Positions 4,727 through 21,286 of a stretch of DNA of 64,000 bases are shown here, in pieces. The notes under the pieces are model-generated. The model saw only the letters and a list, made by a program, of their open reading frames with translations, searched no databases and had not been told where the DNA came from. The stretch's first letter is position 1. The number at the start of each line of letters is the position of its first letter. The DNA comes from Terriglobia bacterium (GTDB lineage Bacteria > Acidobacteriota > Terriglobia > Bryobacterales > Bryobacteraceae): assembly GCA_020073345.1 (NCBI GenBank), contig JAIQFI010000021.1, positions 1 through 64,000 of the forward strand, read 5' to 3'. The translations under genes were made by a program, and so were the position numbers.

Positions 4727-5044
4727 TGCTATCCACGGTGCTTGGTGCGTGTGCAATTGAACCCTTTCGGCACAGTCCCAGCGGCACAAACATCGATAAA
4801 CGCTGCGCGACTACTCGCGGGAGTGACCGAGTCTTGAGTATTACGGCTCCTGGGGACCGTTGCGAATCTTGCCAGGCCTGCAGAAACAGGTCCACCAACT
4901 GCTTCCGGGAGACCTCAAGCTTGGCGATCGCCTGCTCTGGAGTTTAGGTGTAGGGTTCGGGACCACTGGAACCGGAAACCGGCTCGTCCTCAAATCACGA
5001 TTCGAGTTTGCTTTTGGCCGTGCGGCGCATTGACGACAAACTTG

Positions 5045-5890
5045 CTACTTGAACGTCCAAACTAGCACCGCAATTCCCAGCAGAATCCGGTAGACTGCGA
5101 AACCCGCGAAGCCACGGTGACGCACCCAACTCATGAACCAGGCCACGATTGCCCAGGCCACGAAAAACGAAACGACGAACCCTACCGAGAGCACCGCCAT
5201 CCCGTGAGAGTCCAATCCGACAAGGCCGCCCTCCCCAGGATGTCTGATGAATCGCACTAGGTCATAGCCGGTCGCGGCAGCCATGGTCGGAATCGAAAGC
5301 AAAAAGGAGAATTCCAGCGCAGTCGTGCGGGATAGCCCAGCCAATTCGCCAGCGGCGATCGTGGCCATGGATCGGGATGTCCCTGGAAAGACAGCTGACA
5401 GCGTCTGGCAGAATCCAATCCAGATTGCTTGCATCGGCCTGATGCCTTCTACATCTCCGGAACGCGTCCGGCGCCCGAACATGACATCGACAATCCACAT
5501 GACCACTCCTCCGATGATCAGACTGGCTGCCATTAGGCGGAGGTCCTCAAGATTCTTCCCGATGAGTTTCGTCAAAAGGAATGCCGGAATCGCAGTGCAC
5601 ACAAACGCCAGTAGCGTCAGGGTCAATGGGTGATTCAAAGCAGTGCGGTCACCGCGGACCCCGCGCGGGAACGTGGCTAAGAACTCGGCAATGCGGCTTC
5701 GAAAGTAAATCGGCAAACACATGATCGCGCCGAGTTGGATCACGATCGAGAACATCTTCCAATATCCGTTTGAGAAGTCGACGTTGAGGAGAGCTTCTGC
5801 GATCCGCAAATGCGCGGTGGAACTAACGGGCAGAAACTCAGTCAGCCCTTCGACGACGCCCAGAAGGAAGGCGAGCGGGTAGTCAGTCAT
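5045..5890 (-). CDS. uppP: Undecaprenyl-diphosphatase (UppP/BacA)
   Basis: An integral membrane phosphatase that recycles undecaprenyl pyrophosphate to undecaprenyl phosphate for peptidoglycan and other surface polymers; it also gives bacitracin tolerance. The first signature GVVEGLTEFLPVSSTAHL is at residues 11-28, and the second, FPGTSRSMATIAAG, is in the middle of the protein with the conserved PGxSRS arginine. The usual glycine after SRS is a methionine here. Length 281 and about eight hydrophobic segments fit the family. It lies 27 bases downstream of the TonB receptor gene on the same strand and could be co-transcribed with it. Confidence 0.93.
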   Translation of the reverse strand: MTDYPLAFLLGVVEGLTEFLPVSSTAHLRIAEALLNVDFSNGYWKMFSIVIQLGAIMCLPIYFRSRIAEFLATFPRGVRGDRTALNHPLTLTLLAFVCTAIPAFLLTKLIGKNLEDLRLMAASLIIGGVVMWIVDVMFGRRTRSGDVEGIRPMQAIWIGFCQTLSAVFPGTSRSMATIAAGELAGLSRTTALEFSFLLSIPTMAAATGYDLVRFIRHPGEGGLVGLDSHGMAVLSVGFVVSFFVAWAIVAWFMSWVRHRGFAGFAVYRILLGIAVLVWTFK

Positions 5891-5917
5891 GCCCGCGACC
5901 AGGGTTGCAGGTCGCTT

Positions 5918-8440
5918 CTAGAACACAAACCCTAGCGCTGTTTGGTAAGCGCGCGGCTGCACGAAGTGCGTACCGCTAAAGGTCGACAGGAAGTTGTAGA
6001 GCGCATCCTTGTTCGTGTAGTTGGTGACCGCGAACCGAAGAGTCGTCCGGAAGCGTTCCCGCTTGAACAGATTTTCGGTTCCGGCACCGATGTCGAACAC
6101 ATGGCGCGGAGCGATGCGAGGGGGATTGTGATCGTCGTTCTCGGTACCCGGAGCGGGGATCACCAGCCGGGTGGCGCCGTAATTCTTGGGCGTACACTGA
6201 GCGTCCGTGAGGGGGCTGTCAATGGTTGGATGGAAGTTCCCGCAGAAGAAGCCGATGGCCGCCTGCTGCGCGCCCGTAAGCCCGAGTGCATCGTCCAGGC
6301 TGCCGACCGAACCGGCCACCAGACCGCTGTCATAACGCCAAGTCCACGAGACCCAAGGGCCAGTCTTTCCCATTTGATAGCGAAGCTGCGTGGTCTGTTG
6401 GAACGCCTGGTCATGGTCGATGCGGAATACGGAGCCCCCCAGACCTACGTCTCCGTTGAAAACCAGACCGCCGGTCTCGGGCGGAAAGTATCGCGCTCGA
6501 GTGTGGCCCATGGTCGTGGTCCATTGGAAGCCGTGCAAGCTGATGCTTCCAATGCGTACCGCGACGCCATCCAATTTCGATTTCTGCCACGAGATCGGGA
6601 AAGCCACAGGCGTGCTGAAAAGTTGGCCAAAATCATAGGCGTTGTCGGTGTATTTCCAGAAGTAGTCCGCGCTGGCGACCAGCCAGCGGCCGAAAGCCTG
6701 TTCCAGACCCGCATTGTATTGATTGCGATATCCCGCGGGCAACGGCACGCTGGCCGCTCCAAAGGCGTTCGCCGCGAGTCCGCCGACACCGGTGGCGCTT
6801 GAAAGGATCAGGTTCTCGTTGTATGGAGTTTCGAGCGTCCGCGAATATGAAGCTCGGATCACCGTCCCAGTTCCTGAAATGAGATAGGAGAATCCAATGC
6901 GCGGCTGAGCGCTCGTCTCCGTGACGATCCCGTCATAGTGGTCCACGCGCAAGCCCGCCTGAACCTGGAAGTTGCCGAACTTGATGTTGTCCTGAACAAA
7001 GAAGGCGTACTGATTGATATTCCTGCTTTCGTCGAATTTGAACAGCTTTCCGCCAGGCTGGGTCAGGTCATAAGGAATCAATCCGGCAAAGAAGTTCCCA
7101 TCCGCGTCCAGAAATGCGCCATCCGTGGGATCGGTGATCCCGAACCCGAACTGCTCGTGGAGGCGTGTTTGCATCAGCTGGGTGCCGACTTTGAAATTGT
7201 GGCGGCCTTTGACGATAGAGAGGTCGCCTTTCACGCCCCAGTTGGTCAGTGTCCGGTGCTGGCTGATAGTGGCGGGAGTGTCCAAGGTTATGTCTGGGCT
7301 CGGATAGTAATTTACGTCATCATGTCGAAAGAAGGGATTGATGGTCAGAAGTGTGTTGGCGCTAAAGACGTGCTGATACCCTGGAGCGATGTTAAAGGTC
7401 GCAATCTTCTGCCGTTGGTCTTGCCCCAACTGATCATAAGTGTTAGGAATCTGAAACCAGTTTCGGGCGGCCAGTATATTGAGGTGGAACACGTCCTTGC
7501 CATTCGGATTGTAGTCGAAGTGGTCGAAGATGGTTCCGCTGTTGCCAATGGCGTGAATCGGTGTGAACTCAGGTGTATCCAGGAAACGGCCAGAACGAAG
7601 GGAGTTGAAAGCAATGAAGTTTCCTACCTTCCCGCTGCCAACGCCGAACGTGGCATTTTCCGCATAGGTGCCGAAAGAGGCGCGCTGCGCCTCAAAAGTT
7701 CCATTCGGCTTCTGGCCCAGGCCGGACCGTGTGACGGCGTTGACGACGAGACTGGTCTTATCGCCGAACTCCGCTGACGGAGCACCGGTGATCAGCTCCA
7801 TGGACTGAATAGCGTCCAACGGGATCTGAGTTGAGAAGGCCTTGCTTTGCTGATCGCTGATTGGCTGTCCATCCACTGAAAAGCTGGTCTGTGCGTGATC
7901 CCCTAGCGGGTGAAAGAAGCCATTGGAGTCGGCGGCTACCGCTCCGCTGCTCAGTACCACGGCATCGCTCACGCCAGAGGCGGGCGATGAGACCGGGAGC
8001 TTTGAGAGGCTTGAAATATCCACGTCATTGTGTGCGTAGGGGACGTTCTCAAGCAGGTCCGCGCCTTTGGCTTCCACTGTAATCGTGGTCTTGGTTCCAG
8101 CCAGGGCCATCTGAATCTTCATCAAGTCCAGAGGCACGGTACTGCGCACGTCAAGGTCCTGCTCGAATGGAGCGAAATTCGGCGCAGTCACTTCCACGTG
8201 GTATGGATTCGGAGGGATATTAGTCAGACGGAACGTCCCCTTGCTATCCGTGGTCGCCGTCTGCCGATAGTTCGTGAGGCGGTTGAGAATCGTGACCGTG
8301 GCGTTGGGCAGGGCCGCGCCCGAGGGATCTGTGACGATACCTGAGACGGTCCCAGCATTGCCGAGCGCTTGAGCCGCTAGCCGATTCGGGGAACAGAAGT
8401 ACAGCGTGATGAGAGCAGTAAGAGCGAGAAGTCTCTTCAT
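5918..8440 (-). CDS. TonB-dependent receptor, Oar-like, with CarboxypepD-reg N-domain (copy 1)
   Basis: An outer-membrane receptor of about 840 residues. A signal peptide (MKRLLALTALITLYFCS...LAAQ) is followed by a carboxypeptidase-regulatory-like beta domain (GTVSGIVTDPSGAALPNATV), a TonB plug (SSGAVAADSNGFFHPLGDHA, then IDGQPISDQ-like and SAEFGDKTSLVVNAVTRSGL) and a long beta-barrel ending LGFVF with a terminal aromatic residue. It is clearly paralogous over its whole length to the receptor at 12598-15144; shared strings include IPNTYDQ, GTENDDHNPPR and LYNFLS-FSGTH. The frame is open to 8506 but ATG 8440 gives the signal peptide. The paired LytTR-type site at 8510-8540 lies 70-100 bases upstream. 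The ligand is unknown; metal or metallophore is suggested only by nearby genes. Confidence 0.9.
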   Translation of the reverse strand: MKRLLALTALITLYFCSPNRLAAQALGNAGTVSGIVTDPSGAALPNATVTILNRLTNYRQTATTDSKGTFRLTNIPPNPYHVEVTAPNFAPFEQDLDVRSTVPLDLMKIQMALAGTKTTITVEAKGADLLENVPYAHNDVDISSLSKLPVSSPASGVSDAVVLSSGAVAADSNGFFHPLGDHAQTSFSVDGQPISDQQSKAFSTQIPLDAIQSMELITGAPSAEFGDKTSLVVNAVTRSGLGQKPNGTFEAQRASFGTYAENATFGVGSGKVGNFIAFNSLRSGRFLDTPEFTPIHAIGNSGTIFDHFDYNPNGKDVFHLNILAARNWFQIPNTYDQLGQDQRQKIATFNIAPGYQHVFSANTLLTINPFFRHDDVNYYPSPDITLDTPATISQHRTLTNWGVKGDLSIVKGRHNFKVGTQLMQTRLHEQFGFGITDPTDGAFLDADGNFFAGLIPYDLTQPGGKLFKFDESRNINQYAFFVQDNIKFGNFQVQAGLRVDHYDGIVTETSAQPRIGFSYLISGTGTVIRASYSRTLETPYNENLILSSATGVGGLAANAFGAASVPLPAGYRNQYNAGLEQAFGRWLVASADYFWKYTDNAYDFGQLFSTPVAFPISWQKSKLDGVAVRIGSISLHGFQWTTTMGHTRARYFPPETGGLVFNGDVGLGGSVFRIDHDQAFQQTTQLRYQMGKTGPWVSWTWRYDSGLVAGSVGSLDDALGLTGAQQAAIGFFCGNFHPTIDSPLTDAQCTPKNYGATRLVIPAPGTENDDHNPPRIAPRHVFDIGAGTENLFKRERFRTTLRFAVTNYTNKDALYNFLSTFSGTHFVQPRAYQTALGFVF

Positions 8441-8509
8441 TCCAACAGTATCAGGGCACGTCGTACTAGGACCTACGGTTTTCTTACAGATGGCCAGATA
8501 CCCCAAATG

Positions 8510-8540
8510 AGCGGGCTAGTAACCTCCGTGAACGGACCAT
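8510..8540. promoter_or_regulatory. Putative LytTR operator upstream of receptor 1
   Basis: Two imperfect direct repeats, AGCGGGCTAG at 8510-8519 and AACGGACCAT at 8531-8540, lie exactly 21 bases apart start to start. The same element in the same spacing occurs at 9370 and 12269. Two copies of a 9-10 bp half-site two helical turns apart is the known geometry of LytTR-type binding sites such as those of AgrA and AlgR. It sits 70-100 bases upstream of the ATG of receptor 1. Confidence 0.6.
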
Positions 8541-8550
8541 GGTGGGCCCT

Positions 8551-9303
8551 TCACCAATGCAGAATGCTGCGAATGCTGTGAGCCTGGCGCTTGCTAGCAA
8601 TGAGTTGCAGCGAGTTGCTGAGCGTGATGAGCCAACGTTGACTGCTCATCGCACTCATCTTGCGCACGTGGTTCACGTTCACGATCGCGTTGCGATGTAC
8701 CCGCTCGAATTGCTGCCCCTTCAGGCGTTCTTCGATCACGCGAAGCGTTTGCGTCGCCAAGAGCCGTTGTTTTGCGGTAATGATCCATACCAGCTCTCCT
8801 TCCGCCTGGAAGGCCAGAATCTCGTCAGGGTCCAGCAAGAAGTACTCTCCGCCGCTGCGGCCCACAATCTTTCGGCCGCTGACGGAATTGGGCGGCGCGG
8901 ACGCAGCCGCGATCTTGGCAACGTCGTTCGCGACATCCAGTGGATTCTTGTGCAGCTTCCTGGCGCGGTCGACTGCCTTTCGGAGCCGCTCTTCACCGAC
9001 AGGCTTTAGCAGATAGTCCACCGCTCCCGCTTCAAAAGCCTCGATGGCATGCTGGTCGAACGCCGTAATGATCACAATAATAGGCAGGTACCCGCCACTT
9101 AGCCTCCGCACGACTTCGAAGCCGCCCATCACGGGCATCTGGAGATCAAGGAAAACCAGGTCTGGCTTGAGCTCCGCGATCTGCTGTAGGGCTTGTTTAC
9201 CGTTCTCAGCCTCCCCGACAATCACCACGTGCGGAACGTTCTCCAACTCCTCCCGCAGGACGCGCCGCGCGATCGGCTCATCGTCAACGATCAGCGTCTT
9301 CAT
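8551..9303 (-). CDS. LytTR-family response regulator
   Basis: A two-component response regulator of 250 residues. The receiver domain begins MKTLIVDDEPIARRVL; the phospho-acceptor is in LVFLDLQMP (Asp53 from this start) and the switch Lys is in DYLLKPVGEERL. A linker leads to a C-terminal LytTR DNA-binding domain with QRLLATQTLRVIEERL and FERVHRNAIVNVNHVRKM. ATG 9318 would add five residues; ATG 9303 places the upstream repeat pair (9370-9400) at nearly the same distance as in front of receptor 1, which suggests autoregulation. It follows the sensor kinase gene and is its obvious partner. Confidence 0.93.
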   Translation of the reverse strand: MKTLIVDDEPIARRVLREELENVPHVVIVGEAENGKQALQQIAELKPDLVFLDLQMPVMGGFEVVRRLSGGYLPIIVIITAFDQHAIEAFEAGAVDYLLKPVGEERLRKAVDRARKLHKNPLDVANDVAKIAAASAPPNSVSGRKIVGRSGGEYFLLDPDEILAFQAEGELVWIITAKQRLLATQTLRVIEERLKGQQFERVHRNAIVNVNHVRKMSAMSSQRWLITLSNSLQLIASKRQAHSIRSILHW

Positions 9304-9369
9304 CACGCGGTGATCCATGATCTGCCAGGTTTACACTAACTTTCCCAAATGCCCGAGAGAATAATTGCG

Positions 9370-9400
9370 AGCGGACTGGTACTCACAATAAGCGGGCTAA
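9370..9400. promoter_or_regulatory. Putative LytTR operator between kinase and regulator genes
   Basis: AGCGGACTGG at 9370-9379 and AGCGGGCTAA at 9391-9400 are direct repeats 21 bases apart start to start. They lie in the short gap after the sensor kinase gene, 67-97 bases upstream of the regulator ATG at 9303. This is the best-matching pair of the three in the window and suggests that the regulator gene has its own promoter in addition to read-through from the kinase. Confidence 0.65.
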
Positions 9401-9422
9401 ATAAAGATGTGACCGGAATTGG

Positions 9423-11342
9423 CTAGCGCACTTCGTTGTAGGCCAAAACTTCGCCGGAAGGAGAGCGCGACGGCGGGCTCAACGGAATCACGAACCGTAC
9501 GCATGTACCCGTAGGACCGCAGTCAATGACTAGGTCGGCCTGGGCTCCAAAGCAAAGCTGGAGGCGGCGCCTGACATTGGCGAGGCCGACGCCGGCTCCG
9601 GATCGCTCAAAAGGCGGATTGACGCCGACGGTCCCCGCACTGCTGTCCTGAACCGCGATAAGGACCTCTCCGTCTACAGCCTTAGCAGTCACACTCAGTA
9701 TTCCCTTGCCGACTTTCGGCGCGATGCCATGCTTAATGGCGTTCTCGACCAGCGGCTGAATGCAAAGAACCGGAATTTGAACGCCTAACGCTGCTTCGTC
9801 GACCTCAATTTCGGTCTCAAGCCGGGGGCCAATTCGAAGGCGCTCGATCTCCAAATAGGATTTGACGATTTCTAGCTCGTCAGAAAGCCGTATGAACGTC
9901 CGCTCAGATTGCAAGAAGTAGCGAAAGATCTCCGACAGGTTGAGAACCGTTTGCCGAGCTCCCGGCGCAGTCCGAGGAATAATTCCATACAGCGTGTTCA
10001 GTGCGTTGAAGAGAAAGTGTGGATTGATCTGCGCCTGGAGGGCGCGCAACTCTGCCTGAGACACCAGGCGTTGCATCTCGGAGTTCCGAAAGCGCTCGAT
10101 CTGTGCAACGACCGCCGCGGTCAGGCGGCTCAGCGCCTGCAAGTCCTCGCTCAGGTACCGTCTTCCGCCTCGCCGTCGCCCGAAGAGCAGGAACCGGCTT
10201 TCTCCTTGGGTGGTAGGCAGGGGCGCGATCGCCTCTACCCAGGTGAACTCCGGCGCGTGGCGCAACGCTGGCACATCCGAAGCGGGCGCTGGGAACATAA
10301 GACCAGACAGCTCTGGAATTCGATTCAACCTTTGTTCCGGTACCAATTCGACACGATCAGCTCTAAAGAATTGAGCCAGATACTCGCCGGCCCATGTGAC
10401 GAATGCGAGCTCTTCACCTGGGAGCGCTCCTCGGGACTCAATCTCACGAAGCGCCCGATCTACATCAGGACGTCGAAACACGACCTGGGTCAGCCACCGC
10501 TGAACCCGGCCTCGAACAACTGCAAAGCCGATGAGCAACAGGGTGAGACTGAGAAGCAAAAGAGCTTCGTTCATCGGGTTGCCAGATATACGTTCGTCCA
10601 CCACAACCCATCGGAATGTGATCCTGATAGCCACAAACGTTAGCACGGCCGCAACCAAGACATTGGCCAGAAAGCGCACGAATGCATCCAGGAGCACAAA
10701 GCGATAGTCCTGCAGGAGTACGAACAACGCTAATGGGATGCCGGCATGGTGGAGCACCAGTTCGCTAGACCATGCGTGAGCGGGATGGTCGGAGCCGAAG
10801 TGTACGAGCGACATGGCTAGCAAGCACGAGCACATTGCCCCGAATAATCGCGGCGCTCTGGCCTTCCCAGTGCCAGGTGCGTGAAGCACCATGCCAAGGG
10901 CGGCCAGGATCGTGAGAATCGCGAATCCCACGGTGATGAGGAGAAGCGCCCGTTGCCCGTAGAGCTGGCCGGGTTCTGGTAATTCCAACAAATGCATGCC
11001 GACAGCAATCAAGCTCAGCGCGTACCCTGCGGCTATGATCGGCCGGAAACTTCCATCAAGGGATAGGTGAAGCAGAATCGCTGGCAGCAGGCTTAGGGCT
11101 GAGAAGCTTATGAAGACAGTTACACGGGCATACCCTGAGTTGGTCGAGGAAGCGATCAGTACGGAGAGAGAGCCGATGTTCCAGAGAAACGCAAGGCTGC
11201 TGGCCGCAACCGACAACCGGCTGCCCCGAAGACGCGTTCCGGCTCGATCTCGCACCAGGAGGTAGAGGAAGATGCCGAAGATGATGGCGCCGGCGGAGTG
11301 GCCGAGGATATTTACGATTTGTGGCTCGTGAAGATTCGACAT
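9423..11342 (-). CDS. LytS/YehU-type sensor histidine kinase
   Basis: A 639-residue membrane kinase. Residues 1 to about 270 hold some eight or more hydrophobic segments, a sensor of the 7TM kind; a cytoplasmic GAF-like linker follows. The His_kinase domain has the hallmark QAQINPHFLFNALNTL with the phospho-accepting His442, and the ATPase part has PLVENAIKHGI and GAGVGLANVRRRL. Kinases of this class pair with LytTR regulators, and the next gene on this strand encodes one. The membrane protein gene upstream (11420-12031) lies 77 bases away in the same direction. The signal sensed is not evident. Confidence 0.9.
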   Translation of the reverse strand: MSNLHEPQIVNILGHSAGAIIFGIFLYLLVRDRAGTRLRGSRLSVAASSLAFLWNIGSLSVLIASSTNSGYARVTVFISFSALSLLPAILLHLSLDGSFRPIIAAGYALSLIAVGMHLLELPEPGQLYGQRALLLITVGFAILTILAALGMVLHAPGTGKARAPRLFGAMCSCLLAMSLVHFGSDHPAHAWSSELVLHHAGIPLALFVLLQDYRFVLLDAFVRFLANVLVAAVLTFVAIRITFRWVVVDERISGNPMNEALLLLSLTLLLIGFAVVRGRVQRWLTQVVFRRPDVDRALREIESRGALPGEELAFVTWAGEYLAQFFRADRVELVPEQRLNRIPELSGLMFPAPASDVPALRHAPEFTWVEAIAPLPTTQGESRFLLFGRRRGGRRYLSEDLQALSRLTAAVVAQIERFRNSEMQRLVSQAELRALQAQINPHFLFNALNTLYGIIPRTAPGARQTVLNLSEIFRYFLQSERTFIRLSDELEIVKSYLEIERLRIGPRLETEIEVDEAALGVQIPVLCIQPLVENAIKHGIAPKVGKGILSVTAKAVDGEVLIAVQDSSAGTVGVNPPFERSGAGVGLANVRRRLQLCFGAQADLVIDCGPTGTCVRFVIPLSPPSRSPSGEVLAYNEVR

Positions 11343-11419
11343 CTACTATCCAGTCGTCGCTCGCGCGTTTTAGCACCAACGGCAGATTCCAAGAGGTTGC
11401 GAAACACGTTAACCCAGCC

Positions 11420-12031
11420 TCAGTCAAACGAAAGCATCGCGCCGACCTGCTGAAAAAGGTTGTTCCAAGCCGCACCCCCCTCGATCCATGCTCCGAGCGG
11501 AAGAAGCATCAGGACCGCCGAATTTACAAAGCCGGCAAGATTAAGCGAAAAGTTCAGGTCGGGAACATCCAGAGGAGTATTCCGCGCTTCCCACACCGAC
11601 AGCCCGATGAGACCGATCCACAGGAAGGTCAACAAGATGGTTCCGAGGACTCTTGCAAATGGCGACGCCGGTGGCAGAAAAAGCCGCGCGACGACTGCGA
11701 TTGCGCCAACAAGCACGGGGTTGGGAATAGTCGCGATCCGCCATGCGAATTGGTGCCTGTCCGTACGTCTGATCCAGATACAGACCGCCAAGAGCACGCT
11801 GTAAAGCAGCACCAGAGGTAGGATCGCCGATGGCGAGAGAACGATCTCAAGGAGTCGTCCCGTTCCGACCGAGAACATGATTGTTGAAAACAGAGTGACA
11901 GAGGCCAGCAAAACTAAGGCATACTCGCGCAAGCGCGCAACGATAGTTACCGCAGGCCCCATCCTCAGCAGAAGCCAGTCACGTAGGAAGAATACAGGAA
12001 GCACAAATGAAATCAGAATCACGATGCTCAT
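11420..12031 (-). CDS. Hypothetical multi-pass membrane protein
   Basis: A 203-residue protein that starts MSIVILISFVLPVFFLRDWL and has about six hydrophobic segments separated by short basic loops. No family was recognised. The frame is open to 12247, but the extension is hydrophilic and cysteine-rich and unlike protein, so ATG 12031 was chosen. It is the first gene of the run toward the sensor kinase and regulator, which makes it a candidate accessory sensor or modulator of that kinase. This role is inferred only from position. Confidence 0.6.
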   Translation of the reverse strand: MSIVILISFVLPVFFLRDWLLLRMGPAVTIVARLREYALVLLASVTLFSTIMFSVGTGRLLEIVLSPSAILPLVLLYSVLLAVCIWIRRTDRHQFAWRIATIPNPVLVGAIAVVARLFLPPASPFARVLGTILLTFLWIGLIGLSVWEARNTPLDVPDLNFSLNLAGFVNSAVLMLLPLGAWIEGGAAWNNLFQQVGAMLSFD

Positions 12032-12268
12032 TGGGTGCCTTCCGTCGCTACGGGAGTGAATCTGGTTGCTGCCGTGCGCAGCCGAAAGTGAGAGTTCCGT
12101 TTGGACTCGTTTGAGCCCGCGCGGTTCGAGCGACCAGCAGCAGGGCGACGAGCGCAACGACTCTCGAAATAAAGTGAATCGTTCTCCGCAGCATTCGCCT
12201 CCCGTGCATGTATACCGAACGGGTTCAGGATACCCGTCAATCGGCATTTCGGGTAGGAAAAACTCGCA

Positions 12269-12299
12269 GGCGGGCGAACGGTTTACGTGAACGGACTAA
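12269..12299. promoter_or_regulatory. Putative LytTR operator in the divergent region
   Basis: GGCGGGCGAA at 12269-12278 and AACGGACTAA at 12290-12299 are direct repeats 21 bases apart, matching the pairs at 8510 and 9370 (shared core R-R-C-G-G-R-C). The pair lies about 240 bases upstream of the membrane protein gene and 300 bases upstream of receptor 2, farther than the other two sites, so which gene it controls is open. Confidence 0.5.
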
Positions 12300-12459
12300 T
12301 TTGGCGGTGAGCCGAATAAGCCCGCTGAGCATTAAAAGAGGCAGGCGCTTCAAAACTAGGAGCACGCCTGCCTTCAAAGGGACTAGTATGCTGTAGTCGT
12401 GGTTGTTTGCCTTCCTGAGCATAGCTGAATTCCGCCGAATTTTGCAGACAATTCTTGCG

Positions 12460-12490
12460 AGTGGACTATTTCCCGCGACCGACGGCCCAG
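12460..12490. promoter_or_regulatory. Weak candidate LytTR element upstream of receptor 2
   Basis: AGTGGACTAT at 12460-12469 matches the element well (its left flank TTGCGA also matches the flank of the 9370 copy), but the sequence 21 bases on, GACGGCCCAG at 12481, is a poor second half. It lies 108-138 bases upstream of the receptor 2 ATG. Confidence 0.3.
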
Positions 12491-12597
12491 ATCGCCGGCC
12501 AGCGGTCACCACTTGAGCGCTTTTGGCGTTCACTTCGACCCAGGAACGCCATAACAGTAGAAGTTCATTATCCACAGTTGATATAGTAGCGTTAGCC

Positions 12598-15144
12598 ATG
12601 ATTAAGTCATGCCGTGCGACCTCCCGCCTGCCCCCAGCGCTTGTGTTCGCATTGTTCTGGGTCGTTTGCGTCAGTCCAACGGAGGCGGCCGGCCAGTCTC
12701 TGGGCGGCACCGGTACGCTCCGGGGCATTGTCAGAGACGCGACCGGTGCGCCAGTGCCATCAGCGATAGTTGAACTATCGAACCCAGTCACGAGCTTTTC
12801 GAGACAGGCGAAAACCGGATCTGAGGGCGCTTTCGCCATTAGTGGCATCCCGCCGAACAACTACAGGCTCCTCGTGTCACTCGCTGGGTTCCAAAGCATC
12901 ACCAAGAATGTCGTCATCCAAACGGCGATCCCGATGGATCTGGAGGTTCGACTGGAGGTTGCCGGTCAGCAGACTACCGTAACGGTGGAAGCCACTACGG
13001 ACAATCTCGTCGAGAACAGGGCGACAGTCAGCGACGTTGTTGATCGCCAACTCCTTGCGGCCTTGCCAACGTCGTCTCCCGATTCCGGTTTGAATGACGC
13101 GATCATCTACACGACGCCCGGCGTCGCCGCAGACTCCAACGGTTTTTTCCATCCTTTGGGCGACCATGCCCAGGTGAGCTACGTCATTGATGGGCAACCG
13201 GTGTCGGACCAGCGTAATAAGGTTTTTTCGACATCGATTCCTGCCAATGCCATTCAGTCGATGGAGGTCATCTCGGGCTCACCTCCGGCTGAGTACGGGG
13301 ATAAGACCAGTCTCGTGATCAACGCGTCGACCCGCTCGGGCCTCGGCCAGAAGCCTACGGGAAGCGTAACTGCGAGCTATGGTTCGTTCGGCACCATCGG
13401 CGAGGAAGCCACCCTCGGCCTCGGTGGCCCGCGTTGGGGCAACTTCCTGGTGGTGAACGCAGAACGGACAGGCCGCTTTCTAGATACGCCCGAGTTTTGG
13501 CCTATGCATGACATTGGCAACACGGGAACGTTCTTCGACCGCGTTGACTTCGAACCCGGCGGAAAAGATGCCTTGCACTTAGACCTTATGGCGGCCCGCA
13601 ACTGGCTTCAGATACCGAACACGTACGATCAGCCACAGCAGGATCAAAGGCAAAAGGTTGTCTCGTTCAACGTTGCGCCAGGCTATCAACACACGATTGA
13701 TTCGAAAACCCTCGTGAGCATCAACGCGTTTGTGCGCCGCGATCAAGTCAGCTACTACGCCAGCCGCAATCCTCTGGAAGACTCGCCCGCGACCTTGGCT
13801 CAGGATCGTTCGCTCACGAATTTCGGTGCACATGTGGATCTTACGCACGTGCAGGGTCGGCACAACTGGAAGGCCGGTCTGAACGCGATGCAAACGCGGC
13901 TAGACGAGGCGTTCAGCCTCGGCATTACTGATCCTACGTACAATGCTCCTTATCTGACGGACGGCCAGCCCAATCCCAAATTCTTGAGCAGCTTGCTGCC
14001 GTACGACCTGACCCGCGGGGGTCAACTCTATCAGTTCCGTGGGAAGGCCAACATCAACCAGTTCGCCGCCTTCCTACAGGACTCCATCACACTGGGCGAT
14101 CTGACCCTGAATCTTGGATTGCGATTCGACCGTTATGACGGTCTCACACGCGGAGATGGCCTACAGCCGCGAGGGGCATTCTCCTACCTGTTCAAGCCGA
14201 CCAAGACCGTAATTCGCGGTGGCTACAGCCACACCATCGAGACGCCCACCAATGAGAATTTGGTGGCTTCCAGTTCCACGGGGTCTGGTGGTCTCGCTAG
14301 TAACCTGTTTAAGGGCACCGCAGAACAGCGGCCCATCGCGCTTGGTAGTCGCAATCAATACGATGCCGGCATCCAGCAGGGCCTGGGCAGATGGGTTTTG
14401 GTCGATGTAAGCTATTTCCGCAAGTACACCCGCAACGCTTTCGACTTCGATGCACTCTTCAGTACGCCCATTACCTTCCCGATCGGCTGGAAGCAATCCA
14501 AGCTGGACGGAATATCTGCTCGCGTCAGCACGATCGATATTCATGGGCTGCGGGTGTACGCGACGATGGGTCACGCGAACGCACGATTCTTCGGACCGGA
14601 AAACGGCGGCATCGTTTTCAATTCGAATCTGACGATTGGCGCCTACCGTCAGGATCACGATCAGGTCTATCAACAAAACGTGAACTTGCATTATCAAACC
14701 AAGAATGGATGGTGGACCGACTTTACCTGGCGCTACGATAGTGGGCTCGTGGTGGGAGCGGTGAACAACCTGGCAGACGCGCTGACATTGACCGCCGGTC
14801 AGCAATCAGCCATCGGCCTTTACTGCGGAGACGAGCGGGCTACGCTCGCGCACCGAATCACGAGCTGTAATTCGCCTAGTTACGGTGCGGGGCAGATCAA
14901 CATCCTGGCTCCTGGAACTGAGAACGACGACCACAATCCGCCTCGAACCAAGTCCCGTCACATGTTGAATTTGGGCGTAGGGACAGACAACTTGTTCCAT
15001 GCAGAGCGTATCCGCACCATCGTACGATTCACGGTTGTGAACTTGACGAACAAGGCCGCTCTTTACAATTTTCTGTCGCCGTTCAGCGGAACGCATTGGG
15101 TCGAGCCGCGTTCCTATCAGGCACAACTCGGTTGGGCTTTCTGA
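12598..15144 (+). CDS. TonB-dependent receptor, Oar-like, with CarboxypepD-reg N-domain (copy 2)
   Basis: An outer-membrane receptor of 848 residues with the same architecture as the receptor at 5918-8440: signal peptide (MIKSCRATSRLPPALVFALF...EAAGQ), regulatory-like beta domain (GTLRGIVRDATGAPVPSAIV), plug (TPGVAADSNGFFHPLGDHAQ, YVIDGQPVSDQ, PPAEYGDKTSLVINAS) and barrel ending LGWAF. The frame is open to 12523, but ATG 12598 gives a proper signal peptide. The two paralogues face away from the kinase/regulator genes lying between them, so one duplicated receptor family brackets its likely control system. Confidence 0.9.
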   Translation: MIKSCRATSRLPPALVFALFWVVCVSPTEAAGQSLGGTGTLRGIVRDATGAPVPSAIVELSNPVTSFSRQAKTGSEGAFAISGIPPNNYRLLVSLAGFQSITKNVVIQTAIPMDLEVRLEVAGQQTTVTVEATTDNLVENRATVSDVVDRQLLAALPTSSPDSGLNDAIIYTTPGVAADSNGFFHPLGDHAQVSYVIDGQPVSDQRNKVFSTSIPANAIQSMEVISGSPPAEYGDKTSLVINASTRSGLGQKPTGSVTASYGSFGTIGEEATLGLGGPRWGNFLVVNAERTGRFLDTPEFWPMHDIGNTGTFFDRVDFEPGGKDALHLDLMAARNWLQIPNTYDQPQQDQRQKVVSFNVAPGYQHTIDSKTLVSINAFVRRDQVSYYASRNPLEDSPATLAQDRSLTNFGAHVDLTHVQGRHNWKAGLNAMQTRLDEAFSLGITDPTYNAPYLTDGQPNPKFLSSLLPYDLTRGGQLYQFRGKANINQFAAFLQDSITLGDLTLNLGLRFDRYDGLTRGDGLQPRGAFSYLFKPTKTVIRGGYSHTIETPTNENLVASSSTGSGGLASNLFKGTAEQRPIALGSRNQYDAGIQQGLGRWVLVDVSYFRKYTRNAFDFDALFSTPITFPIGWKQSKLDGISARVSTIDIHGLRVYATMGHANARFFGPENGGIVFNSNLTIGAYRQDHDQVYQQNVNLHYQTKNGWWTDFTWRYDSGLVVGAVNNLADALTLTAGQQSAIGLYCGDERATLAHRITSCNSPSYGAGQINILAPGTENDDHNPPRTKSRHMLNLGVGTDNLFHAERIRTIVRFTVVNLTNKAALYNFLSPFSGTHWVEPRSYQAQLGWAF

Positions 15145-15275
15145 AGTATCGATATATCCACCTGGGGTTCTCCCCTTCAGCATGCGTCGGTTCTGGGCGG
15201 ATTCCAGTAGTACCCCGACCTGCTGTTACAAATCATTTCTCCACGGGCGAAATAGCGATCACAGGTGAAACCTTC

Positions 15276-16121
15276 TTAGTGTGCCGCGCTGTCTGGAGCG
15301 TCCGGCTTATCACCGATCTTAGGCACAGTGTCTCGCAGCCATCCCACTACAGCCGCAAGCGGTACACTCACTGCAAGTAACGCGACGGACGTTGGACCAG
15401 GGGGCCAATCCAAATGGAACGAGACGACAACGCCCAAACACGCCAGAACCACGCCTAGCGCAGCTGACATGCCGAAGGTGGACCGGATACTGCGCATAGC
15501 GAGCAGAGAAGCAGTCGGCGCCAATGTCAACAGCGAGAATGTCAGGAGCGCGCCGATTTCGTGCACCGCCGCCGCCGTGGCGATGCCGATCAGGAGATTC
15601 ATGGATAGTGACCAAAACGTCGTGTTCACACCTGCGACCTGCGCCGCTTCTGGATCGAATGTCACCAGCAGGAATCGCCGCCCAAAGAGGATCTGCAATA
15701 ACCCAATCACGAGTGCGAGAACGACGAGGCCAACCGCGTGGCTGACGCTCACCGCCAATAGATTCCCATACAACAAGTGAAGCTCATCCAGGCCTGCGCC
15801 CGGAGTTCCCGCCAGAATGAGGACCGTCGCCGCCGAGGCTGTCGCATACGCCCAACCCATGATGGATTCTGCGGAAATCCGCCGTGGCCTCTGGATGGCC
15901 CCCAAACCTAGCGCGGTGGCTACGCTCGCTGCGATCGAGCCCAGTTCTGGAGGCCAATTGAAGAGTTGGGCGCCAGCTGCGCCCACCGTAGCGGCACTCG
16001 CTAGCACCAGTCCCATGAAGACCACGCGTCTAATCACCAGATAAGTCCCCATCACGCTCAGCATCGCGCCGGTAGCAACTGATGCGATCAGCGCGAGGCG
16101 GATGAAGGTCTGCTCAAACAC
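15276..16121 (-). CDS. Metal ABC transporter permease (ZnuB/MntB-like), pair 1
   Basis: An inner-membrane permease of the ABC-3 family (zinc/manganese import) with about eight hydrophobic segments and the family motifs GTYLVIRRVVFMGLVLASAA near the N-terminus and EIGALLTFSLLTLAP toward the C-terminus. I prefer the GTG at 16121 because it starts VFEQTFIRLALI, as relatives do, and overlaps the ATPase stop by eight bases; the frame stays open to 16142. It forms a translationally coupled pair with the ATPase gene. No periplasmic binding protein gene is adjacent. Confidence 0.87.
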   Translation of the reverse strand: MFEQTFIRLALIASVATGAMLSVMGTYLVIRRVVFMGLVLASAATVGAAGAQLFNWPPELGSIAASVATALGLGAIQRPRRISAESIMGWAYATASAATVLILAGTPGAGLDELHLLYGNLLAVSVSHAVGLVVLALVIGLLQILFGRRFLLVTFDPEAAQVAGVNTTFWSLSMNLLIGIATAAAVHEIGALLTFSLLTLAPTASLLAMRSIRSTFGMSAALGVVLACLGVVVSFHLDWPPGPTSVALLAVSVPLAAVVGWLRDTVPKIGDKPDAPDSAAH

Positions 16122-16881
16122 GGTGATCTCCCGGCCGACCAACGACGAGCGTACGTTTTCCGGCTATGATGCCGATATGTACCGGAACTCCGTACAGTTC
16201 GGTCAAGGACTCCTCTTGGAGTACTTCGTCCAGCGGGCCGTGCAAAATGCTGTGCGTACCCAGCAACATGACAGAACTGGCCAAGTTAAGCACAACCGGC
16301 AGCAGATGAGTGACGATCACGATGGTCAGTTTTTGGCTTCGGTTTAATTCCTGCAGAAATGCGATCATGGCAGCCTCGCTGGCCACATCCATTCCCGCCG
16401 TCGGTTCGTCGAGCACGAGCATCTCGGAATCGGCCGCGATCGCCCGAGCCAATAGGACGCGCTGTTGCTGCCCTCCGGATAGGTTCCGATATAAGCGATT
16501 GCCGAGTGGTTCGCCCCCGACGAGCGCCAGTGCCCGCTGGGCAACATCGCGATCCTCGCTGTGGATGCGCCGGAGCACCCCTGCCCTTGCTGAGCGTCCC
16601 ATCAGCACCACTTCGAGCGCGGTCACCGGAAGGATGGCGTCGATACGCTCACGCTGCGGCATGTAACTGATGGCCAGACTGGCCTTTCGCTCGACCGTGC
16701 CAGCGAGCGGCTTTTGCAGGCCCAACATTGTTCGCAAGAGCGTGGTCTTGCCCGAACCGTTCGGACCAACGATTCCTAAGATCTCTCCACGGCGCACCTC
16801 GAATGAAAGGCCGCGGATGAGAGCGTGCTGGTTGTAACCCAGACTCAGCGTCCGCCCAATCAGTACGGGCTCCGCAGTCAT
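16114..16881 (-). CDS. Metal ABC transporter ATP-binding protein (ZnuC-like), pair 1
   Basis: A 255-residue ATPase with Walker A GPNGSGKTT, ABC signature LSGGQQQRVLLARAI, Walker B MLVLDEPTAGMD and the switch His in VTHLLPVV. The YMPQRERID segment is typical for ZnuC/MntA-like subunits. It drives the permease encoded downstream, with which it overlaps. The P-type ATPase gene ends 186 bases upstream on the same strand. Confidence 0.9.
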   Translation of the reverse strand: MTAEPVLIGRTLSLGYNQHALIRGLSFEVRRGEILGIVGPNGSGKTTLLRTMLGLQKPLAGTVERKASLAISYMPQRERIDAILPVTALEVVLMGRSARAGVLRRIHSEDRDVAQRALALVGGEPLGNRLYRNLSGGQQQRVLLARAIAADSEMLVLDEPTAGMDVASEAAMIAFLQELNRSQKLTIVIVTHLLPVVLNLASSVMLLGTHSILHGPLDEVLQEESLTELYGVPVHIGIIAGKRTLVVGRPGDHRV

Positions 16882-17067
16882 TACGAACTAGACGACTTTT
16901 CAGGATTCACTGCGGTTCGATCTGTTTTGACGAAACATCGCCCGTATCTTCTCAATGCGCGTTATGAGGCTATCCACGCGGTCGCTCATCAACAGCGTAC
17001 CTTATTCGACAAATCGAGATGGCCGAACCGCTCGTCGTGAGCCGTTCACTTTAGCCTTCGAGTGCGC

Positions 17068-19008
17068 TTATCTGCGGTTGCGGGCGCTCACCAATGGGCC
17101 GGTGATGTCACGGGCACTCACTAACCTTGCCGAATTGAGGATGAAGACCATTTCGGATGTCACGTGGATCAGGGCAGCGAGAATTGGATTCAGCAGTCCA
17201 AAGGCCGCCATTCCTACACCGACGGCGTCCACTCCGAGCGTTCCGAAGAAGTTCGTCATGATGATGCGGCGGCACTGTCGCGCGATTTTCAATAACTCAG
17301 CCAGCCGGGTGAGATCGTCTCCAAGCAAAAGAACTGCAGCACTCTCGCGCGCCACGTCCGTGGCTGACCCGACGGCAATGCCTACATTCGCCGCGACCAG
17401 CGCTGGTGCGTCGTTCACGCCATCTCCGACCATTGCAACGATGTTTCCGGCAGTTCTCAGACTCTGCACGCGTCGGAGCTTGTCGTCAGGCAGAAGGCTC
17501 CCCCTCGCCTCGTCAACGCCAAGGTCACGACCTATCGCCTCGGCGATTGCGGGAATATCACCGGTCAGCAGAAGAGCCCGGATGCCCATCTGGTGGAGAG
17601 CGTCAACCGCTGGCTTTGCGCCAGAGCGAAGCACATCGGCGACCTGAATCCTGCCAACATACGTTCCTGAATTCGAGACAAATACATCCGAGGCCGTTCG
17701 ATGCGCGTCCTGAGCGTCGGGAATGCGAACACCAGCGCTCTGGAGATATGCTCTCGATCCGACCAGAATCGTCTTGCCGTTCACCTTGCATCGAACTCCT
17801 TTGCCGGCCTCGGCAAAAAAGTCGACAGAGTCCATAGTTTCCGCTCTAAGTTCAGCGGCCTTTCGGGCAATCGCGCGACCGACTGGGTGCTCTGAATACC
17901 TTTCCGCGCTGGCCGCCAGTTGAACGAGGTCTAAAGCTGCGATCCCAGCCGGTTCGACGCTCACCACTTCCGGAGTACCCAGGGTGAGTGTCCCAGTCTT
18001 ATCTAACACGACGGTGTCAACTGCCGCCAATTGTTCAATATGGCGACCACCCTTCACGATCGCTCCCGCCTTCGCAGCGCGCCCGATGGCTCCGAGAATT
18101 GCGAGGGGCGTTCCGGCGGCGATGCCACAAGCCCCGGCGACGATAATGACGGAGATTGTGCTGCGTGCATCGCGTGTCACCAGGAAGGTCAGAGCAGCGC
18201 AACCCAGAGCGAAATAGACCAAATACGCGGCAAGGCGGTCGGCTGTCCGCTGCACCGGTGCCTGAGACTCCTCGGCACGCTCAACAGCCTCGATGATCTT
18301 GCCAAACGCGGTATCGCGACCCATCGTCACGGTACGAATCTCGAGTGCACCAGTTTGGCTCATGGTTCCGGCAAACACCTGAGAGCCCACAGTTTTCTCA
18401 ACGGGCACAGACTCACCCGTAATAGTGCTCTGATCTACGAACGAGTGCCCGAGGGCCACCTCTCCGTCCACGGGGATACGACCTCCAGGGCGAATGATGA
18501 CTATGTCGCCTTTCAAAAGGGACCCAACTGGAACTGTCTCCGTCGCGGATTCTCGCCTCCGTTCCGCGATCGCGGGCAAAAACTCAAGCAGATCGCGGAT
18601 GGCCCGGCGTCCCCGCTCGACCGTCAGCTCTTCAAGGGCCTCAGCGATCAGCACGAAGAACACAATGACCAGAGCCGTGAACACTTCCCCAATGACGAGC
18701 GCCGACGCGAGCGCGATAGTCATCGACAACTCCATCGTCATGCGCCGCGACAGGACGTCGGCCACCGCTTCCCGATAGATTGGGTAGCCTCCAGCCACGA
18801 CCGCAAGGAGGCCAACGAGGTCCAACGGGGGATAAGGGCGCCAGATGTTAAGCCAACAGAAAACCACTGCCGGAGCCACCAGCGCGATTCGTACGAGGTC
18901 AGTGCGGGCAATGCCTTCGTGTCCGGTATTCTCCAGAAGATCGACTGGTGCCTCAGAAGCCTTTGGCTGCAAAACTGGGCTTCGTGTGCTGTCTGTTGTT
19001 GCGCTCAT
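17068..19008 (-). CDS. Heavy-metal P-type ATPase (P1B) with GAC in place of CPC
   Basis: A metal-exporting P-type ATPase of 646 residues: actuator motif TGES at 197-200, phosphorylation motif DKTGTLTLG with Asp336, and the hinge MVGDGVNDAPAL. There is no N-terminal HMA domain. In the ion-binding transmembrane segment, where relatives read CPC followed six residues later by TP, this protein reads AGACGIAAGTPLAI, that is Gly-Ala-Cys at 292-294: the proline and first cysteine are gone. Metal specificity therefore cannot be taken from zinc/cadmium or copper relatives. It follows the CsoR/FrmR-like gene by 13 bases and is probably its target. Confidence 0.9.
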   Translation of the reverse strand: MSATTDSTRSPVLQPKASEAPVDLLENTGHEGIARTDLVRIALVAPAVVFCWLNIWRPYPPLDLVGLLAVVAGGYPIYREAVADVLSRRMTMELSMTIALASALVIGEVFTALVIVFFVLIAEALEELTVERGRRAIRDLLEFLPAIAERRRESATETVPVGSLLKGDIVIIRPGGRIPVDGEVALGHSFVDQSTITGESVPVEKTVGSQVFAGTMSQTGALEIRTVTMGRDTAFGKIIEAVERAEESQAPVQRTADRLAAYLVYFALGCAALTFLVTRDARSTISVIIVAGACGIAAGTPLAILGAIGRAAKAGAIVKGGRHIEQLAAVDTVVLDKTGTLTLGTPEVVSVEPAGIAALDLVQLAASAERYSEHPVGRAIARKAAELRAETMDSVDFFAEAGKGVRCKVNGKTILVGSRAYLQSAGVRIPDAQDAHRTASDVFVSNSGTYVGRIQVADVLRSGAKPAVDALHQMGIRALLLTGDIPAIAEAIGRDLGVDEARGSLLPDDKLRRVQSLRTAGNIVAMVGDGVNDAPALVAANVGIAVGSATDVARESAAVLLLGDDLTRLAELLKIARQCRRIIMTNFFGTLGVDAVGVGMAAFGLLNPILAALIHVTSEMVFILNSARLVSARDITGPLVSARNRR

Positions 19009-19021
19009 TTCGGTACTCCAC

Positions 19022-19300
19022 TTAGCGAACGTACTGCTTGATAACGTCGATTAGCTCCTGCGCTGCGATGGATTGGGCGGAGGTCGGGCGATGGTCTGGA
19101 TCAACCAGATGAAAGCGGATGTGACCTTCCAGCACCTCCGTCATCAGAGCATTGATGGCTCCCCGGCAAGCCGCAATCGTATGGAGGATTTCCGTACACT
19201 CAGCTCCCGTTTCCAGGCTGCGTTCGACGGCTTCGACCTGTCCACGAATCCGCCGAATTCGATTCAGGAGTTTCTTCTTGTCTCGAAGTACATGGGCCAT
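19022..19300 (-). CDS. CsoR/FrmR/RcnR-family metal-sensing repressor
   Basis: A 92-residue DUF156 helical repressor beginning MAHVLRDKKKLLNRIRRIRG. Members bind Cu(I), Ni/Co or formaldehyde and release operator DNA. The metal-site pattern shows His3, a Cys in ECTEIL and His in GHIRFHL, closer to FrmR/RcnR than to the Cys-His-Cys of CsoR. An upstream ATG at 19309 is possible. A dyad GTATACC-N6-GGTATAC lies directly upstream (19315-19334). The P-type ATPase gene follows 13 bases downstream, so the two form an operon that the repressor probably controls. Confidence 0.9.
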   Translation of the reverse strand: MAHVLRDKKKLLNRIRRIRGQVEAVERSLETGAECTEILHTIAACRGAINALMTEVLEGHIRFHLVDPDHRPTSAQSIAAQELIDVIKQYVR

Positions 19301-19314
19301 AGTTTTCATTGATA

Positions 19315-19334
19315 GTATACCCCCGTAGGTATAC
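19315..19334. promoter_or_regulatory. Putative operator of the CsoR/FrmR-like repressor
   Basis: GTATACC-CCCGTA-GGTATAC is a 20-base dyad with a C-run, the usual form of CsoR/FrmR/RcnR sites. It ends 14 bases before the repressor ATG at 19300 and lies between the repressor gene and the divergent MerC-like gene, so it could control both. Confidence 0.65.
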
Positions 19335-19492
19335 GTTTGCCAGTCTTTTCTTGAGTACGGAACAGCGTCTACACCCGAAGTCCATCCATCCTCCCGTTCG
19401 CGCCAGTTGAGGCCTGAATGAATCCACCCATGAGAAAACTCTGGGTGAAAATCGGGCTTCACGGTATAAGGGATTACGCTCTGTAGCGACCC

Positions 19493-19888: not shown

Positions 19889-19930
19889 TTCGGACATACG
19901 TAGCCGTGCACGGCCTTTCTTACGGACGAT

Positions 19931-21028
19931 TCAATTCCCCAGCTCTGCAGCATCCAACAGACTGCCGTCTGGCTTCCTAGCCTCGACGTGGGCCTTCTTC
20001 CCGTCCACATTGACGATTACGAAGTTCTCAGTACTTGCAACCTTGACGGTGATATTTGCAGGCGGCGTATCGACGTCGTAAAGGGGCGCTCCACCTCCAC
20101 CGGTAGTGAAGTAATGTACGCCGTTCTTTAGATAGTGCTGGTAGTTGTGGTCATGGCCGAAGAATCCGGCAGATACTCTGTATTTCTCGAAGATCGGTTC
20201 CAGTGCCGTCATCTGCTTGTTTTCGCCTTGCCGGCGTTTTACTGCGGTTTCGGGCGGATGATGCGCCATCACAAACCGTAGATCCATGTTTTGCGAATCC
20301 CGTAGGTCCGCATCCAGCCAGCGCGTCTGCTCCTGCCAGAATGCATCTTTTTCGGCTACGGTGCCCGGAACGTTTTCGATGTCACTGTCGATCACGGCAA
20401 AATGAGCGGTGCCCCAGTTGAACGAGTAGTGCGATCGGGCATCCAAGAAGTCGAAATAGTTTTTCGCGTTCGCCTCGTGATTTCCGAGGGCTGAGAAAAA
20501 TGCGGTCTTGCGGAGCAGTTCTCGTTCGATGTCGAAAAAGATGGGCCATAGCGACGTATCGGCGCCGTCAGCTACCAAATCACCAGTCTGCATCACGAAA
20601 TCGGGGTTGGCATGTTTGAGAATGCCCTCAATGACAGTTCTATGCACGTCATGCCTGGTTCGCGTGTCGCCGTAAACGACGAACTGAAACTGCGCCGGCC
20701 CGGCGGGCGGAGTTTTGAACGACCCCTTCCCGGCGTCGCCCGGAAAGGATTGGTAATAATAAGTCGCGCCCTGCCTTAAACCGCCGAACGTGATGCTTTC
20801 CGCGTGTAGTATCGGTGCCGACTTCTCCATCTTGCCTGGCTCCGTGCCCAATGCGGCTTCGCCCTTCTGAACGAGCCACACCACTGTAGCCGAGCGCGGT
20901 CCTACGTTCACGGCGTATGGGCCTCCGACGATCTTTTCGACCGTTGCTTGCGCAGCGGCGGGCCGTACTCCTTCGGTCAGCCCGAATAATGCGGCGGTTA
21001 GCGCCCACACACCCGCAGTTCTTCTCAT
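19931..21028 (-). CDS. Secreted metallophosphoesterase, purple-acid-phosphatase-like
   Basis: A signal peptide (MRRTAGVWALTAALFGLTEG...AAAQA) is followed by a fibronectin-like domain (VNVGPRSATVVWLV) and a calcineurin-like phosphoesterase domain. All metal-binding blocks are present in order: YGDTR, QTGDLVADG, ALGNHEAN, MAHHPPE and FGHDHNYQ. It should act on phosphate esters in the periplasm with a two-metal centre. ATG 21028 gives the signal peptide; 21061 is an upstream alternative. It lies between metal transport genes but on its own promoter. Confidence 0.87.
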   Translation of the reverse strand: MRRTAGVWALTAALFGLTEGVRPAAAQATVEKIVGGPYAVNVGPRSATVVWLVQKGEAALGTEPGKMEKSAPILHAESITFGGLRQGATYYYQSFPGDAGKGSFKTPPAGPAQFQFVVYGDTRTRHDVHRTVIEGILKHANPDFVMQTGDLVADGADTSLWPIFFDIERELLRKTAFFSALGNHEANAKNYFDFLDARSHYSFNWGTAHFAVIDSDIENVPGTVAEKDAFWQEQTRWLDADLRDSQNMDLRFVMAHHPPETAVKRRQGENKQMTALEPIFEKYRVSAGFFGHDHNYQHYLKNGVHYFTTGGGGAPLYDVDTPPANITVKVASTENFVIVNVDGKKAHVEARKPDGSLLDAAELGN

Positions 21029-21192
21029 TGGCAATCTCCAGTTGGCAGGATACGCGAACACGCCGTAGTCGCCAGACCCAACGCGTTTACTCCAACCAAC
21101 TGTAGATCAAGTCTCTACGGTTTTCCTCCCCTTTTTGACAAGTGGGCCAAGTCAGGCGATGAGTGGCCTTGCATCGGCAATGACCGGAGAGC

Positions 21193-21217
21193 GGCAGGCA
21201 GGTTGCTGTAGCCTGCC
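21193..21217 (+). terminator. Hairpin with pyrimidine tail upstream of ABC pair 2
   Basis: GGCAGGC and GCCTGCC form a seven-base-pair stem with an 11-base loop, followed by GATCTTCTTTT. It lies 70 bases before the TTG start of the ABC ATPase gene. It could end transcription coming from the left or act as an attenuator of the transport operon. The U-tract is not perfect. Confidence 0.35.
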
Positions 21218-21286
21218 GATCTTCTTTTGAGTCAGGCACACCTTGTCTCCAGTAAACTTGAGTTACCAAAAGAAAGGGCGAGGTCG

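Follow-up and report, generated by a model that had tools for sequence, protein, structure and literature searches.

A stretch of 64,000 nucleotides from a Terriglobia bacterium (Acidobacteriota, Bryobacteraceae; contig JAIQFI010000021.1), here called the window, contains a directly repeated element that lies on both sides of a gene for a LytTR response regulator and precedes a gene for a TonB-dependent receptor. These repeats are very probably the operators of the LytTR regulator encoded between them, which would form part of an autoregulated two-component system that activates the receptor. The repeats, their spacing and orientation, their conservation, the promoter geometry at the nearest loci and the linkage to receptors and to a P-type ATPase are all present in the DNA itself. 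The features that carry this reading are the following:

8551..9318, minus strand: LytTR response regulator, 255 amino acids (Pfam Response_reg 95.4 bits, LytTR 74.6 bits)
9365..9420, minus strand: triple LytTR-type array before the regulator, with blocks 9407-9420, 9386-9399 and 9365-9378 (30.9 bits, in the matrix training set)
8484..8539, minus strand: triple array before receptor 1, with blocks 8526-8539, 8505-8518 and a weak 8484-8497 (29.5 bits, in the training set)
5918..8440, minus strand: receptor 1, TonB-dependent, with a CarboxypepD_reg domain, 840 amino acids (CarboxypepD_reg 73.7 bits; signal peptide by eye)

The original prediction had described a half-site A(G/A)CGG(A/G)CT that forms direct pairs at 21-base spacing, and this pattern was matched across the 64 kb window and the 6.23 Mb genome. 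As read on the gene strand, the half-site is AGYCCGYTCA, and all arrays of the window are directed along the minus strand, like the minus-strand genes. Three pairs had been reported and all three were found in place, but they differ in quality: the pair at 9370/9391 is exact (AGCGGACT and AGCGGGCT), the one at 8510/8531 carries one mismatch (AACGGACC), and in the third the 12290 copy is exact while two mismatches occur in the 12269 copy (GGCGGGCG), the full consensus being fitted by four of the six half-sites. The exact pair pattern occurs only at 9370/9391, both in the window, where 100 shuffles gave no match, and in the whole genome, where a reversed-pattern control gave none either. A weaker copy reported at 12460 (AGTGGACT) is also present, with a weak partner 21 bases on, at 12481. 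A third half-site was recognised in the arrays at 9370 and, weakly, at 8510. The regulator array stops 46 bases before the ATG at 9318 and the receptor 1 array 43 bases before the start codon of that gene, which bears out the description of an element that brackets the regulator and precedes receptor 1. The regulator itself, which starts at 9318 or at a second ATG at 9303, consists of a receiver and a C-terminal LytTR domain, both above curated cut-offs; in receptor 1, the Plug match (22.4 bits) falls just below its cut-off of 23.9.

The conservation of the pairs was assessed in 100 fetched loci around related regulators, two of which, C94 and C76, come from the same genome as the window; the nearest named records belong mostly to Bryobacterales, Bryobacteraceae, Solibacter or Sulfopaludibacter (Acidobacteriota). 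Pairs were counted with the predicted consensus alone, without any trained matrix, in 160 bases on each side of the regulator, allowing up to three mismatches in 16 at a lag of 21 bases. Beside regulators at least 66% identical to that of the window (C94 included), such pairs were present in 9/20 upstream and 14/21 downstream regions, and beside regulators 56-66% identical in 20/52 and 16/52, respectively. The signal is nearly confined to the strand of the gene, since the opposite strand gave 0/20, 2/21, 1/52, 0/52, 0/25 and 0/26 regions at the same lag, and each of two coding controls gave 0/100. When the window's own genome was excluded and two near copies were removed from the 143 remaining regions, the lag-21 pair was found in 56 of 141 flanking regions, compared with a mean of 6.0 and a maximum of 14 for 30 other lags between 10 and 40. 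Counted by locus, 42 of 73 carry the pair on at least one side and 15 on both, against 1 to 11 loci at the other lags from 17 to 25; these 42 loci represent 38 of 64 genomes. The half-sites are thus conserved beside related regulators, contrary to the non-conservation that the original prediction had named as counter-evidence.

The arrays are also linked to receptors. In a set of 68 loci that had an array score and a callable next gene, C94 among them and regulators below 56% identity excluded, the gene next to the regulator was a receptor preceded by an array in 35 cases, an array occurred without a receptor in two, a receptor without an array in five, and neither was present in 26 (Fisher p = 1e-11). 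A scan of both strands of the 100 loci, in which a pair of at least 20 bits was called a strong array, recovered 65 strong arrays, whose nearest tracked downstream gene was a receptor in 38 cases, a regulator in 19, the kinase in two, a P-type ATPase in one (L214), the membrane protein P4, followed by a receptor, in one (L215), and no tracked gene in four, the C76 array among them. Most receptor and regulator arrays in this count are training data of the position matrix, whereas those of the ATPase, the kinase, L222 and C76 were not used for training.

This matrix was trained on the flanking regions, with the regulator and receptor arrays of the window and the C94 locus included, and the scores of these are consequently not independent. 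It shows three half-sites, and many arrays are triples: in 1.23 million positions, triples of at least 24 bits numbered 70 at lag 21 and three in total at 16 other lags, the matrix having been trained on part of these loci. Downstream of the receptor array, a core promoter was recognised:

8447..8475, minus strand: receptor 1 core promoter, with TAGG at 8472-8475, 20 bases, ATACT at 8447-8451 and the ATG at 8440

The complete layout, CCG-21-CCG-21-CC[GA]-18-TAGG-20-ATACT-6-ATG, is shared by the window, its C94 paralogue and the two closest relatives. The TAGG/ATACT core was recognised in 19 of 74 rows (window and C94 included), in 18 of which TAGG and ATACT are separated by 20 or 21 bases and the start codon follows six or seven bases further, and seven of the 19 have CC at all three of the positions 60, 39 and 18. 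Where this core is present, the receptor mRNAs are predicted to be leaderless, with the start codon at or next to the transcription start.

Further arrays and genes of the window may belong to the same set. They are listed below, together with the second receptor:

9423..11342, minus strand: LytS-type sensor histidine kinase, 639 amino acids (Pfam His_kinase 89.3, HATPase_c 35)
11420..12031, minus strand: P4, a 203-amino-acid membrane protein of no known family (sequence comparison)
12048..12194, minus strand: open reading frame (ORF) of 48 codons with a Sec-like signal sequence (by eye)
12264..12298, minus strand: pair array before the sensor operon (pair score 21.1 bits; not used in training)
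12455..12489, minus strand: weaker pair that includes the 12460 copy (17.8 bits)
12598..15144, plus strand: receptor 2, TonB-dependent, 53% identical to receptor 1, with no array detected upstream
19931..21028, minus strand: calcineurin-like metallophosphoesterase with a signal sequence by eye (Pfam Metallophos 57 bits)
21136..21191, minus strand: triple array upstream of the metallophosphoesterase (27.0 bits; not used in training)

The kinase is of the LytS type, with a His_kinase (PF06580) core and a HATPase domain. The 12269 pair had been taken as leading to receptor 2, a claim that found no support: the array faces away from that gene, towards the 48-codon ORF, the membrane protein and the kinase. 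Because it ends 69 bases before the small ORF (43 bases in the case of receptor 1, 46 in that of the regulator), it would belong to the sensor operon, an assignment drawn from this genome; with a possible third half-site at 12243-12256, which can be aligned and scores poorly, the distance would be 48 bases. Receptor 2, in which CarboxypepD_reg and Plug are both above cut-off, was accordingly rejected as a target, no plus-strand pair above 5 bits being found in 12230-12600. Upstream of the ATG of the 48-codon ORF (12194) there are a TATACAT and a strong ribosome site GGGAGG, and no homologue was found among the fetched related-regulator loci that were searched; the ORF may encode a peptide confined to this species, or it may not be a gene. 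Relatives of P4 lie beside related regulators in three other genomes among the fetched loci. For the metallophosphoesterase, about 0.02 triples like that at 21136-21191 would be expected in 128,000 positions from the lag-control background, and this gene is a likely target of the system.

Downstream of the 12455-12489 pair, within 12335-12425, a –10-like TATGCT is followed by a hairpin and a T-run (about 12340-12375, minus strand), which may indicate a short regulated transcript, roughly 80 bases long, between this pair and the 12298 array. The fold of the stretch that holds the hairpin gave z values of –1.2 to –1.5 for the whole stretch, and the hairpin was not among the results of a consensus terminator scan. 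A search of 5000-22000 against known RNA families (Rfam) gave no match at E up to 1, and a promoter scan of 12000-12650 found none against a shuffle mean of 0.4, numbers too small to discriminate.

On this basis, the following mechanism is proposed, in which binding, activation rather than repression and a metal signal are what we infer from sequence. The membrane domain of the kinase would perceive a signal and lead to phosphorylation of the regulator, whose molecules would align head to tail on two or three AGYCCGYTCA half-sites with a spacing of exactly two helical turns. At the promoter of the receptor, where the last half-site is located just upstream of a weak –35, the bound regulator would recruit RNA polymerase and thereby activate transcription. 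The predicted targets are the regulator itself (positive feedback), receptor 1, the operon of the small ORF, the membrane protein and the kinase, the metallophosphoesterase, and the C94 regulator and receptor. The function of the system is probably to turn on the outer-membrane uptake of a scarce nutrient, and the nutrient is possibly metal-related.

The C94 locus gives rise to the alternative that survives best. The genome has six LytTR genes, and arrays occur at three of them, namely C60, which is the locus in the window, C94 and C76, while no arrays were found in the tested flanks of C87, C35 and C58. The C94 regulator is 79% identical to that of the window (the C76 regulator 48-52%, in two alignments), and its locus follows the same plan of array, regulator, array and receptor. 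It is conceivable, with a small but appreciable probability, that a LytTR paralogue such as the C94 regulator also binds the sites of the window, the two circuits sharing operators and the local regulator being neither the sole nor the main binder. The same operators do precede the C94 regulator and receptor, and no kinase was found among the five other C94 proteins scanned, which suggests that the C94 regulator may rely on the kinase of the window. Other genomes, however, keep arrays beside the related regulator, and this would favour local control as the older state. In either case, the circuit had been proposed to be self-contained within the locus, and that claim was retained only in part: the sites do flank the regulator, but with operators shared by C94 and a metallophosphoesterase added at 21 kb it is not strictly self-contained.

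A second alternative, which we regard as rather improbable, accepts the LytTR operators and supposes that the regulator represses, as CoxC does, until a signal from the kinase lifts the repression. In the case of CoxC, three direct repeats overlap the –35 and transcription is repressed (PMC11347149), and the third half-site described here is also close to the –35. Nevertheless, TAGG is located 18 bases downstream of the third CC in the window, at C94 and in the nearest relatives, so that the array ends before the –35. This arrangement resembles that of the LytTR regulatory systems (LRS) of Streptococcus mutans, whose repeats are found 4-11 bases upstream of the –35 and are associated with positive autoregulation (PMC6193735). 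A weak core promoter would likewise suit an activator. Lastly, the idea that the repeats are chance matches in a GC-rich genome, to which the poor 12269 half-site and the genome-wide frequency of relaxed pairs, about that of reversed controls, might point, can be dismissed as having almost no probability, given the sharp lag-21 peak in independent sequences and its strand and coding controls, and conservation tests that refute chance.

Returning to activation by the local regulator, several observations weigh against it or restrict its reach. Regulators less than 56% identical gave pairs in 3/25 and 1/26 regions, near background, and 31 of the 73 loci have no strict pair on either side (in 3 of the 73, one side was not testable). 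Five receptors adjoin a regulator without an array, and the strict promoter core was not recognised in the other 55 of the 74 rows. A pair directly before the kinase was found in one of 54 regions of 220 bases, a reach beyond which the window's own array lies. Upstream of 29 out of 29 orthologues of the metallophosphoesterase, the array is absent at lag 21, which makes this gene a local member of the set. Within the own genome, the pattern counts were 814 against 998 for the reversed pattern with up to three mismatches, and 214 against 186 with up to two. In neither of these looser counts does the pattern clearly outnumber its reversed control, from which it follows that the sites are few and local. 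Among the 24 genome matches with no more than one mismatch, nine are at C60, C94 and C76; each of the remaining 15 overlaps an open frame of at least 120 codons on either strand, as do three of the nine at the LytTR loci (137-208 codons).

LytTR regulators that work with LytS-type kinases include AgrA, AlgR, BtsR/BtsS and YpdB/YpdA. The present system shares with the LytTR/LytS-type systems a receiver joined to a LytTR domain, a His_kinase-type partner and direct repeats two turns apart; it differs from them in its half-site triples, in a TonB-dependent receptor as recurrent target, in a sensor without a Pfam family and in its occurrence in Acidobacteriota. It is not a BtsSR system by its score, as the regulator reaches 162.9 bits against a BtsR equivalog cut-off of 246. 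In the literature, a LytTR site comprises two repeats of 9-11 bases, direct or inverse, that are separated by 11-13 bases (PMC4847170), and published sites consist of direct repeats that recur at about 21 bases close to the –35 (PMC11347149, PMC4847170, PMC6193735). The earlier link of the element to LytTR regulation is supported by the LytTR regulator gene that is present and by the repeats, whose geometry is that of LytTR operators. RcoM1 and CoxC resemble the arrays described here in having three direct repeats, about 18-21 bases apart (PMC11347149), but these proteins are one-component carbon monoxide sensors that recognise the motif TTCNNGCA and control cox genes (PMC11347149). The LRS HdrRM and BrsRM are similar in their direct repeats just upstream of the –35, their positive autoregulation (PMC6193735) and a linked membrane protein; in contrast, they consist of a regulator with a membrane inhibitor and no kinase partner, whereas the regulator here has a receiver and an adjoining kinase. 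Moreover, the membrane protein that would correspond to theirs, P4, has relatives in just the three genomes mentioned above.

Acidobacteriota form an abundant group in soils (PMC3174227), and little work seems to have addressed how their outer-membrane receptors are controlled. Among the open-access papers listed, no title or abstract opening on LytTR control of TonB-dependent receptors in Acidobacteriota was found. The system would operate in the manner of the LytTR systems compared above; its pairing with TonB-dependent receptors and with this sensor in Acidobacteriota is what the papers listed were not found to contain. A predicted operator of exact geometry ties one regulator family to receptor genes, and as the strict pair is found in 38 of 64 relatives, receptor regulons could be read from sequence. 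The proposed self-regulated LytTR switch with a neighbouring receptor is encountered in many related species, and it may have a connection with the handling of metals.

The possible metal context of the system comes from several sides. The C76 array is followed by genes for an outer-membrane-like protein without a Pfam family, a binding protein of the ZnuA family and a permease of the ABC-3 type, and an array of this type is also present in the relative L259. By their family matches, these genes are identified as parts of a zinc/manganese-type importer, although the metal-specific NCBIfam models score below their cut-offs. At C94, no metal gene was found among the proteins scanned, which speaks against a universal metal link.

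In the kinase, the membrane domain (residues 1-290) has 14 invariant columns in 56 aligned sequences, including H181, E194, H198 and H199, and H15 and H117 are kept in 90% or more. The described membrane sensor domain of the LytS-type class is 5TMR-LYT; a Pfam scan of the 56 members found no such domain shared by them, no Pfam family being matched by more than one member at E up to 0.1. The structure model is good overall, with a mean predicted local distance difference test (pLDDT) score of 82.4, but poor, at 51-61, in residues 181-210, which hold H181, E194, H198 and H199. No solved relative of the sensor domain was found by sequence at E up to 1. A fold search returned loose matches to G-protein-coupled receptors and adiponectin receptors (best E 0.0035, with a template-modelling score on model length below 0.5 in the best 50 rows), which were not used as evidence. 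Metal sensing by this domain is a lead, and the system would connect, in a way open to testing, the transport of metals with a membrane sensor that has invariant histidines and is as yet uncharacterised. Tentatively, and with less than even confidence, the kinase could carry a new sensor of seven to eight helices whose invariant histidines and glutamate bind a metal or a metal cofactor, and the LytTR system could be a dedicated metal-homeostasis switch of the Bryobacteraceae that drives TonB-dependent receptors and, in some genomes, a CPC-less P-type ATPase through cooperative three-site operators.

In the window, a cluster of metal genes is located at 15276-22724, with two ABC-3 permeases and their ATPases, a P-type ATPase, a CsoR/FrmR-type repressor and a MerC protein. 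The P-type ATPase is the following:

17068..19008, minus strand: heavy-metal-type P-type ATPase (TIGR01525 509 bits, above cut-off)

In canonical P1B metal ATPases, the membrane helix that precedes DKTGT contains a metal motif of the CPC type. The ATPase of the window lacks it and has GACG[IV]AAGTPLA in place of CPC; among the nine related sequences listed, the same sequence occurs in eight at 55-61% identity, and the ninth, 37% identical, carries CPC. Members of its subfamily were matched with E values of 1e-150 or less in 16 of 237 genomes, that of the window among them. In at least 13 of the 16, the ATPase is no more than 10 kb away from a related regulator or kinase, the other three having no such neighbour among the matches listed. 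In one genome (L214), the subfamily ATPase is preceded by a LytTR-type array of its own.

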